From assembly GCA_903900025.1 (NCBI GenBank), contig CAIULN010000018.1, forward strand, positions 1 through 42,863: DNA of 42,863 nt, given 5' to 3'. Origin of the DNA: an uncultured Methanomicrobiales archaeon (GTDB lineage Archaea > Halobacteriota > Methanomicrobia > Methanomicrobiales > Methanospirillaceae). Below, piece by piece: positions 15,313 to 19,841 of the stretch. Position numbers and translations under genes: made by a program. Under the pieces are notes generated by a model. The model made no database searches, was not told the origin of the DNA, and was given only the letters and a program-made list of their open reading frames with translations. How positions within the stretch are numbered: the first letter of the stretch is position 1; each line of letters opens with the position of its first letter.

Positions 15313-15567
15313 TTATTTGTATCTGACTTTCATTGCCACAAGGACGACGACCAGCGCAAACGTGATGGTGTTGGCAAGGATGATGGGCAGGGACCCGATA
15401 TGAAACCCGTAGACTGCCCAGAGCAGCATGCCCAGGCCAAATAAGGTGAGCATAATAAATGAGATGTCATGAGTCGAGCGGGTCCTCCAGCTCCGGATCA
15501 CCTGCGGGAGAAACGAAATAGTGGTGAGAGTCCCTGCCATGTACCCGATAAGAATTGTTGTCTCCAT
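15313..15567 (-). CDS. SemiSWEET-type (PQ-loop) sugar transporter
   Basis: Small three-helix membrane protein of 84 residues, the usual size of bacterial and archaeal SemiSWEETs, which act as homodimers to move sugars passively. The PQ-loop motif is seen in TTISFLPQVIRSWRTRS in helix 1. Helix 2 is ISFIMLTLFGLGMLLWAVYG, with the conserved Ser, Trp and Tyr-Gly. Helix 3 (LPIILANTITFALVVVLVAM) carries the substrate-pocket Asn. AGGAGA precedes the ATG. It is convergent with the RDD gene. The substrate cannot be told. Confidence 0.9.
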   Translation of the reverse strand: METTILIGYMAGTLTTISFLPQVIRSWRTRSTHDISFIMLTLFGLGMLLWAVYGFHIGSLPIILANTITFALVVVLVAMKVRYK

Positions 15568-15721
15568 GAAAATCTCCTGAAGTATAGGCTCCGCACACCA
15601 TTAAACCAGCGGGACAAAAGAAGGGTGCCGGGGCGGGGGGCGAAAGTGGGTGACGGAAACCCCCGTTTTGCATAAGAGTAGTATTATTAAACCTGATACA
15701 AATCATCTTTACAGGTTACGT

Positions 15722-16633
15722 ATGGAGGGCATTCCGGTGAACGGGCGGCTGATACGGGCGGCTATGGTTTCCTGTACCGTGCTGCTTGTCCTCCTGCTGT
15801 TCCAGCCGGTTTTTGCAGCAACATCGGGCAAGGTCGAGATCACGGCTGATGTCGTCCTGCCCCCCCCCATCGCAGATTTTACGGCAGATATCACCGAAGG
15901 GACGGCCCCGCTTGCCGTGAAATTCACCGACACCTCCACCGGAAGCACGATATCGTGGGCATGGGAGTTTGGTGACGGTACAACGTCATCCGAGAAGAAC
16001 CCGGTGCATGTCTACACAGCAAAGGGCAAGTACACGGTCGCCCTGACGGCAGCCAACGGTGCGGGCAGCTCCACAAAGACCGGGCACAACTTCATTTCGG
16101 TGAAAAAACCAAAGCCCCAGCACAAGCCCCATGCGGATTTTACCGCAGCACCGCGTACCGGCACCGCACCGCTGGCCGTGCAGTTCACCGACGCCTCGGC
16201 AAACGATCCCGACTCGTGGAGCTGGCACTTTGGCGACCTCTCGGAGCCATCTTCTGATCAGAACCCGTCGCACACGTACACAAGGCCCGGCAGGTACACT
16301 GTCACGCTCCATATCTCCAACGAGCGGGGCGATGATATCGCGATCAAACCGAATTACATCGAGATCCCCGAACCGGCGCTGAAAGCGGCCTTTACCGGAA
16401 CACCGCTCACCGGCACCGCACCGCTCACCGTCCGGTTCACCGACACCTCAACCGGCAGCCCCGGCCTCTGGATCTGGCGCTTTGGCGACGACCCGTTCGA
16501 TTTCTCGTTCCAGCAGAACCCCGTCCATGTATACCGCCATGCCGGCAGCTACACGGTGCGGCTGACTGTCTTCCGGATGGGCGAAGCTGACACGGAGATC
16601 AAAGACAGGTACATCACGGTCGCCAAGAAATAA
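15722..16633 (+). CDS. Secreted protein with three PKD domains
   Basis: Exported surface protein of 303 residues. The ATG at 15722 starts a signal peptide (core VSCTVLLVLLLFQPVFA). The mature part begins GKVEITADVVLPPP and then has three PKD repeats. Their FGD cores are WAWEFGDGTTS, WSWHFGDLSEPS and WIWRFGDDPFD. Each repeat starts with a GTAPL(A/T)V segment and ends with YTV(A/T/R)L. PKD repeats mediate protein or carbohydrate contacts on methanogen surfaces. There is no membrane anchor, so it is secreted or bound to another surface protein. The GK-x5-DV-xx-PP start recurs in the next two genes. Confidence 0.92.
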   Translation: MEGIPVNGRLIRAAMVSCTVLLVLLLFQPVFAATSGKVEITADVVLPPPIADFTADITEGTAPLAVKFTDTSTGSTISWAWEFGDGTTSSEKNPVHVYTAKGKYTVALTAANGAGSSTKTGHNFISVKKPKPQHKPHADFTAAPRTGTAPLAVQFTDASANDPDSWSWHFGDLSEPSSDQNPSHTYTRPGRYTVTLHISNERGDDIAIKPNYIEIPEPALKAAFTGTPLTGTAPLTVRFTDTSTGSPGLWIWRFGDDPFDFSFQQNPVHVYRHAGSYTVRLTVFRMGEADTEIKDRYITVAKK

Positions 16634-16731
16634 CCTCCTCCTCCTTTTTTTTACAGGCGTTCTTTCGATTCCTGCCGGCGCGAACGCCGTTATTTCCTCC
16701 ATCGCCTGATTCCGGAAGTATCTCACAAGTC

Positions 16732-16764
16732 TTATTATCCGGTTTGTTGTATGCTCTGGTATTC
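16732..16764 (+). promoter_or_regulatory. Duplicated upstream element, copy 1
   Basis: The stretch TTATTATCCGGTTT followed by GTATGCTCTGGTAT just before the first paralogue recurs almost unchanged before the second at 17481-17509. TTATTAT lies in the region where an archaeal TATA box could be, 45-50 bases before the ATG. It was probably copied with the gene and may place both under the same control. Confidence 0.5.
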
Positions 16765-16779
16765 AAACAGGAAGTCTGA

Positions 16780-17364
16780 ATGATGAATAGCAAACTGGTT
16801 CTTGGAATTGTCCTGCTGGCGCTCCTCACGCTGACGGGTGTGGTGAGTGCGGATATGGTAGGGAAAGCAACTGTAAGCGGGGATGTTCCACCGACTCTTG
16901 AACTGACAGTAAGGGGTGATGTTTCAAACTGGCAACTGAAACAGTCCTGTAGTGAACCTTCAATTGGTGTGTTTTTAGACGTCACGGACATTGGGAACGT
17001 GAACGGTTATCATATAATGGTGGCGGATAAAATGGACCCAGATCTCTGTAAAAATCCAAAACCCGCGGGATCAGAAGGTTATATGACGGTATATAAGGAT
17101 AGTTCCTGTGCTGCTGGCTGGGGTTATGCAACTCCAACTCATCAGCTAGCGATGCCATTATGGATCCTCGATTATGGTGGTCAATGGGGTTATCTTGAAT
17201 TAAGTGGAACAGATCATCTATTATTGACAAGTACTGAATGGCCTGATTATAACTCCTACCCAATTCGGTTTCAACAGTGCCTCGCTGTTGGTGAGAAGCC
17301 CGCCAGTGTTTATGGCGGTAATGGATACCGCATCATCGTAACCTTCACTGCAGTGCCGAACTGA
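16780..17364 (+). CDS. WxL-like secreted protein, paralogue 1
   Basis: Exported protein of 194 residues with a signal peptide (MMNSKLVLGIVLLALLTLTG, cleavage near VSA-D). The mature chain is predicted beta-rich: PPTLELTVRG, NWQLK (Trp51-x-Leu53), GYHIMVAD, and a C-terminal strand GYRIIVTFTAVPN. This order matches the two halves of the WxL surface domain of Gram-positive bacteria, the distal motif there being close to Y-xxx-L-T-W-x-L-xx-P. The match is by eye. It has four cysteines that may form disulfides. It is 35-40% identical by eye to the next gene. The coding region is more AT-rich than its neighbours, which suggests fast change or transfer. Confidence 0.75.
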   Translation: MMNSKLVLGIVLLALLTLTGVVSADMVGKATVSGDVPPTLELTVRGDVSNWQLKQSCSEPSIGVFLDVTDIGNVNGYHIMVADKMDPDLCKNPKPAGSEGYMTVYKDSSCAAGWGYATPTHQLAMPLWILDYGGQWGYLELSGTDHLLLTSTEWPDYNSYPIRFQQCLAVGEKPASVYGGNGYRIIVTFTAVPN

Positions 17365-17378
17365 TCGAGATCCATCGC

Positions 17379-17407
17379 GCCGGATCGTCCCGGCATCCCA
17401 ACCTTTT
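17379..17407 (+). terminator. Hairpin and T-run after paralogue 1
   Basis: The arms GCCGG (17379-17383) and CCGGC (17390-17394) enclose six bases. A shared tail CCCAACC and a run of five T follow. The same design follows paralogue 2, so gene and terminator were duplicated together. Confidence 0.5.
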
Positions 17408-17480
17408 TCCTGTTCTTCCCGCCATCACCGGGACTTCATAATGGTGCACCGGGCCGTCGCATGTCAATTTCAGTAGTATT

Positions 17481-17509
17481 ATTATCCCGTTTGCGGTATG
17501 CTCTGGTAT
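17481..17509 (+). promoter_or_regulatory. Duplicated upstream element, copy 2
   Basis: It repeats copy 1 (TTATTATCC...GTATGCTCTGGTAT) and is followed by a strong AAGGAGGGG ribosome site before the ATG at 17531. Confidence 0.5.
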
Positions 17510-17530
17510 CCCCAAGGAGGGGTATGAACG

Positions 17531-18127
17531 ATGAATGCCAATCTGGTTCTTGGAATTGTCCTGCTGGCGCTGACAGGCATCGTGAGCGCGGAAACAGCAG
17601 GAAAAGCGGACCTGAGCGGGGACGTGCATATTCCGCCGACTCTTGAACTGACAACATCAGGAAGTATTACCAACTGGGTATTAGAACCTGATAGTTTGAG
17701 CTATAACGCAAAAACAGGGGTTACAATTACGGTCACAAGTAATGGAAATGTCGATGGCTATCATGTATCCGTGGCTGATAAACTGGATCCACTTCAAACA
17801 GGTGGTGTCTCAAAACCAGCGGGAACAGCAGGTCACATGAGTACGTATTGTGGTTCAGATCCCACGGATTACTGTGGAGTTGGCAAACTCACAAACCCTG
17901 TTGAAATTGATGACTTTTCCTTTGATCCTGAGGGGTCATATTTTGTTCATGTGTGGGTAAGCGGTGCAGATCAGGAATTATATCATAATAATTATGAACA
18001 ATATGGAGTACCGGTCAACTATACTCCAACGTTCGAGCAAATCGTCGGACCTGATGATAAACCTGCACGCTGGTATGGGTCGACCGGTTACCGGATAATC
18101 CTGACCTTCACCGCCACACCGAACTAA
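17531..18127 (+). CDS. WxL-like secreted protein, paralogue 2
   Basis: Exported protein of 198 residues, tandem copy of the preceding gene. The signal peptide is MNANLVLGIVLLALTGIVSA. The mature start GKADLSGDVHIPPTLELTTS is followed by TNWVLEP (Trp49-x-Leu51), VTITVTSNGNVDGYHVSVAD, and the last strand GYRIILTFTATPN. Layout and final motif resemble the WxL domain, with Tyr or Phe where the second Trp would be. Two cysteines lie close together in the middle. Tandem copies with separate promoters and terminators suggest high or alternative expression. The surface location is inferred from the signal peptide, and the partner may be the anchored protein encoded next. Confidence 0.75.
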   Translation: MNANLVLGIVLLALTGIVSAETAGKADLSGDVHIPPTLELTTSGSITNWVLEPDSLSYNAKTGVTITVTSNGNVDGYHVSVADKLDPLQTGGVSKPAGTAGHMSTYCGSDPTDYCGVGKLTNPVEIDDFSFDPEGSYFVHVWVSGADQELYHNNYEQYGVPVNYTPTFEQIVGPDDKPARWYGSTGYRIILTFTATPN

Positions 18128-18140
18128 ACACAATGAGTAT

Positions 18141-18175
18141 GCCGGGATCCATGCCGGCACCCCAACCTTTTTCCT
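18141..18175 (+). terminator. Hairpin and T-run after paralogue 2
   Basis: The arms GCCGG (18141-18145) and CCGGC (18154-18158) are followed by CCCAACC and TTTTT, matching the site after paralogue 1. Confidence 0.5.
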
Positions 18176-18200
18176 CATCCTGAACAGAGCAATCCTCAGG

Positions 18201-19238
18201 ATGATGACGATGCGTTCCGTTCTTATACGCTACAACCGGATTCTGCCCTGTACTGCCCTCCTTGTCATGCTCGCCGCCCTTCTCTGCACCCCGGCAAGCG
18301 CCGGGATCGCGGTTGCAGGAGCGAAGTACATGGGCGAGATCGCACCGGGCGAGACGTATGTCCACACTATAACCGTCAGCACCAAACCGACCGATGCTGC
18401 CATGGATATCGTGATCGACGTCATGGGGTTTGGTCAGGGGGCTGATCGGGGCTATACAACACTCCCTGCCATCCAGGACACCGGGCAGTACAGCGCCCGC
18501 CCGTTCATCACGCTCGATGCCAGCTCGTTCACACTCAAGCCGGGCGAATCAAAGACTGTGAAGGCAACGATAGCGGTACCGAAGAACGCGGGTGCCGGCG
18601 GGCGGTACGCGATGATCTATATCCACACCAAGCCCGGCGGCGGGGGGACGACCGGCGTAGCCGCTGCGATTGGGGTGCCGGTGATGGTGACCATCAAGGG
18701 GCAGCCGGTCACCGAGACGGGATCAATCACGGATATCAAAGCGGTGACGAGATCTGACGGGAAGACAGCAATCGTCACGAAGTTCCGGCATACCGGCAAC
18801 CATCACTATTACGGGGCGACGAATGCCGTAACGGTGACCGACGCTGCCGGCAAAGAGGTCGCGACGGTAACGCTCGATCCATCGGCAACCGCGATCATCC
18901 CGGGAGCGACGGTCACGTTCGAAGCGGTAACGCCAACCCCGCTTGTGCCGGGCACGTACACCGCGGAATCGAAAGTCACGCTCCCGTCCGGAACCGTGCT
19001 TGACACAAAAAAGATGCCCGTTGAGGTTGCCGCCGCTCCTGCCGGGGAAGCACCCGCAGGAACTGCCTCACTGGCAACTCCAGGCACCGGCACCGGAAAA
19101 GGTTCCGGCGGGGCGGATATCGTGCAGGGTACCGTTGCAGCGCCAGGCGCAAATGCGACGTATTCTCCGGGTCCCTCACCGCTGATCATCTGCGGGATGC
19201 TTGCGGCAGCTCTCCTGCTGTGGTGCAGGAAACAATAA
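18201..19238 (+). CDS. DUF916/DUF3324-like anchored surface protein
   Basis: Exported, C-terminally anchored protein of 345 residues. A signal peptide ends near CTPASA-G (about 34). Domain 1 (about 35-175) is Ig-like: GEIAPGETYVHTITVSTKPTDA, FTLKPGESKTVKATI, GRYAMIYIHTKPG. Domain 2 (about 177-275) has GSITDIKAV, TKFRHTGNHHYYG, a strand with TDAAGKEVATV, IIPGATVTFEA and LVPGTYTAE. This order follows the DUF916-DUF3324 pair of Gram-positive WxL-interacting proteins. A Gly/Pro-rich linker and one final helix (PLIICGMLAAALLLWCRKQ) anchor it. It lies directly after the two WxL-like genes. The domain match is by eye and moderate. Confidence 0.78.
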   Translation: MMTMRSVLIRYNRILPCTALLVMLAALLCTPASAGIAVAGAKYMGEIAPGETYVHTITVSTKPTDAAMDIVIDVMGFGQGADRGYTTLPAIQDTGQYSARPFITLDASSFTLKPGESKTVKATIAVPKNAGAGGRYAMIYIHTKPGGGGTTGVAAAIGVPVMVTIKGQPVTETGSITDIKAVTRSDGKTAIVTKFRHTGNHHYYGATNAVTVTDAAGKEVATVTLDPSATAIIPGATVTFEAVTPTPLVPGTYTAESKVTLPSGTVLDTKKMPVEVAAAPAGEAPAGTASLATPGTGTGKGSGGADIVQGTVAAPGANATYSPGPSPLIICGMLAAALLLWCRKQ

Positions 19239-19252
19239 CCAATACCTTCTTT

Positions 19253-19825
19253 TCAGAACTTTTCCCGGGGGGCCTGATCCTCGCGCATGTTATTCTCCAT
19301 CGTCCAGAACCATGCCTCGCCGTGAGCGACGCGGAAGATCGCAAGCTTCGCATCCTTCGGGACTGCTTTCATAAGGTCTGCAACCCATGGCCGGTCCTTA
19401 AAGAGATGCTCTTCGAGCGCCTTATCCTCCAGAAACTCGACCTTTCCGGTGACCCGCATCATCCTTCCGGCACCCCGTTCCCCCAATTGCATAGAAGCAG
19501 AGCTCGACTTTCGGGTTTTTCTTCAGGAAACTCGATGATCACATCCACAAACGTGGTGAGCTGGGAGAGGATCTGCGGGTCGAGCCCTTTCTCGACCGCA
19601 GGGAAGATCCCTGAAATATCCATCAGGCGGAGCTTGTTGGTCACAAAATGGATGAACTTGCTGATATTTGGCGACGAGGTAGACCAGCATGGTGCTGATC
19701 GAGTCATAGAGGATGCAGACCTTTTTGCCGGACAGCTGTTTGAAGAGTTCAGTCACCGCGATTCCCATGTCGGTTACGTTCGCAGGATTGTTCACGTACC
19801 GCACGACGCCCGGCTGACATGGCAT
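19253..19825 (-). pseudogene. Chimeric gene remnant: RecA-like piece joined to a PNPOx-like piece
   Basis: Protein-like sequence jumps between frames. From 19825 leftward, GVVRYVNNPANVTDMGIAV and ILYDSISTMLVYL resemble the middle of archaeal RAD55/KaiC-like ATPases. The frame then changes near 19665 to SKFIHFVTNKLRLMDISGIF and QLTTFVDVIIEF, the end of the same family. At about 19530 a third frame gives KKNPKVELCFYAIG, and near 19490 a fourth segment continues with RMMRVTGKVEFLED and FWTMENN, the C-terminal half of a pyridoxamine-phosphate-oxidase-like flavin protein. Both parents lack their N-termini. Two broken genes fused by a deletion, with further frameshifts, explain it best. No function is expected. 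Confidence 0.7.
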
Positions 19826-19841
19826 GAAAGAGCCCGTACCA

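Follow-up and report, generated by a model that had tools for sequence, protein, structure and literature searches.

The window analysed here is a stretch of 42,863 nucleotides from an uncultured Methanomicrobiales archaeon (contig CAIULN010000018.1). Four open reading frames (ORFs) on its plus strand, between positions 15722 and 19238, probably make up an archaeal version of the surface system that WxL and WxLIP proteins form in Firmicutes, with a membrane-anchored, strand-donating protein that would hold partner proteins on the cell surface; this is a variant of the WxL/WxLIP kind and not a new category. The protein with the membrane anchor (18201-19238) is truly homologous to the WxLIPs (DUF916-DUF3324 proteins). 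Its partners, two secreted paralogues, carry a new C-terminal domain family without a prior name, designated A1 here, which appears to be the functional counterpart of the WxL domain; homology between the two domains is only suggested by sequence comparison. According to published accounts (PMC9772566, PMC10599100), WxL domains occur only in bacteria, are over 91% Firmicute and bind peptidoglycan, and a literature search found no paper linking WxL with methanogens. The original prediction for this locus had proposed an archaeal surface system either related or convergent to WxL; the anchor is indeed related, and "archaeal" proved too narrow, the variant also being found in Chloroflexota.

The anchored protein and bacterial WxLIPs

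The anchored protein consists of a signal peptide, two tandem Ig-like domains, a low-complexity linker modelled with low confidence, a C-terminal transmembrane (TM) helix (LIICGMLAAALLLWCRKQ, 19179-19232; helix 294-311 in the AlphaFold model) and a basic tail. Based on the model, Foldseek and domain-wise hhalign comparison, domain 1 (18300-18695) is the counterpart of DUF916/PGBD and domain 2 (18720-19028) that of DUF3324/HBD, which is the order of a WxLIP. When the model was compared by Foldseek with 350,542 PDB chains, WxLIP structures (9i25_C, 9i1y) occupied ranks 1-3 with E-values of 5.7e-12 to 6.4e-11, followed mostly by PapD-type usher chaperones. Alignment of the whole anchor with Firmicute WxLIPs by hhalign gave E 3.8e-10 (local) and 8e-15 (global) and was strong over most of the length. 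The pairing was specific to domain order: domain 1 matched WxLIP domain 1 with E 2.9e-4 as against 0.21 for domain 2, and domain 2 matched WxLIP domain 2 with E 3.5e-5 as against 0.22 for domain 1. A search of 177,635 PDB sequences with the anchor-family profile placed EfmWxLIP1 first, at an E-value (0.13) that is insignificant alone. The Pfam profiles remained below threshold: PF06030 scored 17.2 bits on the window anchor (cut-off 27.3), and subthreshold matches to PF06030 and PF11797 were obtained in 23/36 and 8/36 members of the anchor family, respectively, with none above cut-off in 199 Methanomicrobiales genomes.

A search of 301 Chloroflexota genomes revealed two groups of loci. The first contains pairs of the archaeal type, an A1-domain protein beside an anchor (L201-L203, L184), and the second genuine WxLIPs above the PF06030 cut-off (L206-L209; five proteins), some with WxL neighbours, including a genuine WxL protein at L209 (PF13731, 43.5 bits). 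A profile built from these five WxLIPs, when run against 980 proteins, recovered 67 anchors, 12/12 Firmicute WxLIPs and nothing else, without false matches among the proteins with PKD and CARDB domains. The window anchor was found with E 9.3e-10, a strength equal to that for several Firmicute WxLIPs (1e-9 for L111). This transitive homology is taken to be the strongest single result. In a tree of anchors, which has long branches and was used only for this placement, each side of the split included Chloroflexota; transfer from one domain of life to another, in either direction, is therefore likely. The WxL-type proteins at L206-L209 mostly keep motif 1 (D-x-RG-x-GW) and are without a second W-x-L; one such domain is borne by a Kelch-repeat protein.

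Homology of the anchor to WxLIP is thus established by the agreement of structure, profiles and Chloroflexota intermediates, and the layout that had been likened to DUF916-DUF3324 reflects common descent. Ordinary convergence, by which generic Ig-like adhesins of methanogens would merely resemble WxL and WxLIP proteins, could draw on the finding that fn3_5 and NPCBM_assoc score on the anchor as well as PF06030 does. It is very improbable and largely refuted already by the WxLIP-specific ranking in both Foldseek and the PDB profile search, the order-specific domain pairing, the clean Chloroflexota bridge, and the near-perfect co-occurrence of domain and anchor described below.

The A1 domain and its association with the anchor

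The two tandem secreted paralogues are present as originally predicted. Small protein 1 (16780-17364) and small protein 2 (17531-18127) each comprise a signal peptide and a C-terminal beta-sandwich domain, A1, matched at 16852-17358 and 17594-18124 with E-values of 2.4e-32 and 1.6e-27 by the hidden Markov model (HMM) of the family in a search of their own genome. Since they are 43% identical over their full length (BLASTP E 6e-42), have a near-identical leader and have about 50 bp of upstream DNA in common, they are tandem duplicates. The segment upstream of small protein 1 (16730-16779) aligns as a near-duplicate of 17476-17530 and represents a promoter/5' untranslated region copied along with the gene. 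Neither protein matched Pfam, NCBIfam or, when compared directly, PF13731.

Homologues were found in only 7/199 Methanomicrobiales genomes by single-sequence search, because they are too divergent. The A1 family was defined from the neighbours of anchor genes, giving an alignment of 51 rows; its profile found the domain in 25/199 genomes and had no match among PDB sequences. In nearly every member A1 closes the protein, as WxL does. The small form (signal peptide and domain) has about 150-200 amino acids (aa), and in the large form A1 is the last domain of proteins of 400-1500 aa which are mostly rich in PKD repeats, so that the two forms follow the logic of bacterial WxL clusters.

Both small proteins contain NW-x-L, GYHxxVAD and a terminal YRIIxTFTAxPN, and these motifs exceed chance since the HMM built from neighbouring genes recovers this domain from dozens of genomes. 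Their reading in WxL order requires partial revision. The W-x-L noticed originally (SNWQLK in protein 1, TNWVLE in protein 2) lies in an early strand, where many family members have FG-x-M, and is the counterpart of neither WxL motif. WxL motif 1 (GW-x-L-x-V) corresponds instead to the later W-x-V-x-x-D strand, at which the window proteins read GYHxxVAD, as had been proposed; a W-x-V/L-like motif 1 occurs in many members. The terminal A1 motif is T-F-T-A/G and has no Trp.

The domain and the anchor form a gene set. Full-length anchors were identified in 30/199 Methanomicrobiales genomes, and an anchor was present in 25/25 genomes with an A1 domain (hypergeometric P 4e-27). A1 domains lay within 5 kb of an anchor gene in 54/55 cases, 29 of them within 200 bp, and the remaining one was on a different contig of a draft genome. 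In the window the anchor is encoded directly downstream of the small proteins, and a second domain/anchor pair was found on contig C21 of the same genome. A search of named genomes using an anchor alignment of 14 rows yielded 26 loci, 25 of which also carry an A1 domain, the exception being a Methanoculleus locus. Carriers of the pair include Methanoregula, Methanolinea, Methanocella, one Methanosarcinaceae genome, Methanothrix and the bacterium Dehalococcoidia AH-958-E22. The gene cluster layout of WxL systems (WxLIP with adjacent small and large proteins) recurs with A1 replacing WxL; the window itself has two small A1 proteins and no large one. The gene set is hence conserved in other Methanomicrobiales, a point that the original prediction had proposed to check, and the contrary pattern, homologues of the small proteins consistently lacking an anchored partner, was not observed.

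Whether A1 descends from the WxL domain is less certain. Global hhalign of A1 with a broadened WxL profile scored 22.4 (E 2.9e-4, probability only 18%); the highest score among 60 column shuffles was 10.8, and five real beta-sandwich decoys stayed at or below 8.4. The alignment paired the Trp of motif 1 as well as the last strand. The local score of 23.4 was barely above that of a DUF3324 decoy (20.3), and the local score alone was dropped as evidence of homology for this reason. HMM cross-matches between the two were none better than 0.028, PF13731 had no match above cut-off in 199 genomes nor to any A1 protein, and the bacterial WxL profile found none of the small proteins significantly. (The bacterial query used for fetching records was a self-made consensus; later steps employed only annotated or profile-confirmed proteins.) The second W-x-L (YxxTLTWxLxxxP) is absent from A1. 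That A1 is a true WxL homologue, and the locus a complete WxL system of archaea from which the second tryptophan was lost, falls slightly short of an even chance: the global alignment, the partnership with a WxLIP homologue and the Chloroflexota proteins that have motif 1 and likewise no second Trp speak for it, and the low hhalign probability, the local decoy, the negative profile searches and the fold matches of small protein 2 given below speak against it. The likeness of the small proteins to the WxL domain in the original prediction is thus at most suggestive: the profile-profile and structural comparisons that it proposed succeeded for the anchor, whereas for the small proteins the first gave a suggestive result and the second had no WxL chain among the best 50 matches.

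Additional relatives of the anchor were observed. Proteins of about 400 aa (families f5/f6; G116:C67, G124:C62, G063:C37, G012:C19 and others) match only the second half of anchor domain 1 together with domain 2, and appear to form a second anchor-like family without an A1 partner. In relatives from another archaeal family (f22), at L212 (1244-2065; G292:C69) and L211 (4731-5531; G428:C24), the matched frame contains an internal TAG or TGA and no TM helix is found at the end; the stops may possibly be read as pyrrolysine or simply end a shorter protein.

Proposed strand donation at the cell surface

The confident AlphaFold models are all-beta (pLDDT 87.3 for small protein 2). At the end of anchor domain 1, aligned with the hairpin region of WxLIP, the model and conservation in anchor alignment A4 delimit a hairpin (18600-18695) made up of a strand (18600-18629, GGRYAMIYIH), a flexible loop of low pLDDT (18630-18665) and a second strand (18666-18695) with alternating hydrophobic residues (consensus FxTAVxVPVMLTI). 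This hairpin is a candidate strand donor. PapD-type chaperones donate their strand from the same place. In WxLIP, AlphaFold2 modelling indicated that a hairpin strand completes WxL by insertion (PMC10599100), and 9i25 is a solved WxLIP-WxL complex. For small protein 2 the best Foldseek match was the TasA fibre, then donor-strand pilins, with Pyrobaculum bundling pili and Pyrodictium cannulae further among the listed matches. Donor-strand capture at the membrane is favoured because of the WxLIP precedent, the hairpin, the PapD-like fold of the anchor and the resemblance of the partner to donor-strand subunits. Accordingly constructed, A1 would be an incomplete beta-sandwich completed by a strand that anchor domain 1 donates; such binding would capture A1-bearing proteins at the archaeal cell surface, and the captured PKD proteins would be displayed for adhesion or matrix functions.

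Several observations weigh against this interpretation. The fold matches of small protein 2 are weak (best E 8e-3, TM-scores up to about 0.5), and the best 50, all of them weak, do not include 9i25_A, the WxL chain with a solved structure. The WxLIP motif NQIDKxxxYFDLK is absent from 14 aligned anchors, and weak matches to the anchor were also given by many further Pfam families of Ig type. Finally, an anchor subfamily (G125, G085, G140 and one of the two copies in G093) lacks a neighbouring partner domain and resides in another fixed gene context.

The same fold matches could indicate a filament resembling TasA or archaeal pili, in which the small proteins would polymerise through an N-terminal strand and the anchor would act as a TapA- or PapD-like initiator instead of a holder. 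TasA, too, receives a strand in a chaperone-like manner, from TapA (PMC10151520). A V-x-I-x-G(-x-V) segment right after the signal peptide, common to PKD-only, small and large proteins of the loci (including 15722-16633, 16780-17364 and 17531-18127) whose architectures are not otherwise related, could be a further, N-terminal donor strand, and is regarded as a lead only. It was present in 36/70 locus proteins and 18/173 other ORFs, a pattern picked post hoc that is weaker out of sample, in a set which includes a duplicate locus. A filament nevertheless seems unlikely, given that the camelysin/TasA Pfam families matched 0/51 A1 members, that the fold scores are low, and that many partners are PKD proteins of 600-1500 aa with one terminal domain, for which display fits better than a rod.

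Since methanogens and Dehalococcoidia have a WxLIP homologue together with a partner domain of its own, the system is uncoupled from peptidoglycan: display of this kind would not need a bacterial wall, and the focus for its core function moves from wall binding to strand complementation. The archaeal A1 family, nameless so far, is now defined. A bolder and more doubtful extension is that peptidoglycan-independent donor-strand display spans archaea and Chloroflexota, with WxLIP and its archaeal kin as membrane-tethered, PapD-like donors for the incomplete sandwiches WxL and A1, PKD or other large proteins held at the surface and perhaps chained by strand exchange, and the wall-binding WxL system of Firmicutes as one derived branch.

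Neighbouring genes and comparison with known systems

The first ORF of the locus (15722-16633, plus strand; alternative GTG start at 15650) encodes a secreted protein with three PKD domains (Pfam PKD_4, E 4e-50) and no A1 domain. Its mature N-terminus, GKVEITADVVLPPP, is like those of PKD-only proteins at related loci, and similar proteins adjoin the domain/anchor pair at other loci as well; it is likely a displayed or adhesive partner. The GC content of the small-protein genes is 0.47, compared with 0.56 for the window and 0.60-0.62 for the PKD and anchor genes beside them. An ORF of 84 aa on the minus strand (15313-15567), immediately upstream of the locus, resembles a SemiSWEET/PQ-loop sugar transporter. 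Downstream of the anchor, coding pieces on the minus strand (19237-19830) run on through shifting frames, due to either a frameshifted gene or an error of the draft assembly.

Compared with the WxLIPs of Firmicutes (DUF916-DUF3324-TM; PF06030/PF11797; PDB 9i1y, 9i25), the archaeal anchor has the signal peptide, the order of Ig domains, the C-terminal TM helix, a similar size and a gene placed directly after that of a secreted partner, and WxLIP is its top structural match. It differs in scoring below the Pfam cut-offs, in an identity of about 15%, and in having conserved motifs of its own (YSARxFI, GGRYAI, NTGNHHYY) and no NQIDKxxxYFDLK. Its host is also different, methanogens of this group having S-layers and no peptidoglycan. 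A1 resembles the WxL domain (PF13731) as a C-terminal beta-domain at the protein end with small and large forms, a WxLIP-type neighbour, a motif-1-like W-x-V strand and a terminal Y-x-I/T-x-x-T strand; it is shorter (about 140 aa), without a PF13731 match or second W-x-L, and its profile similarity is only suggestive. From the chaperone-usher and TasA/TapA systems the locus differs by having no usher, a membrane-tethered anchor, no demonstrated filament and weak fold scores for the domain. It resembles them in that A1 folds like donor-strand subunits and the anchor like PapD-type chaperones, with its hairpin at their donor-strand position.

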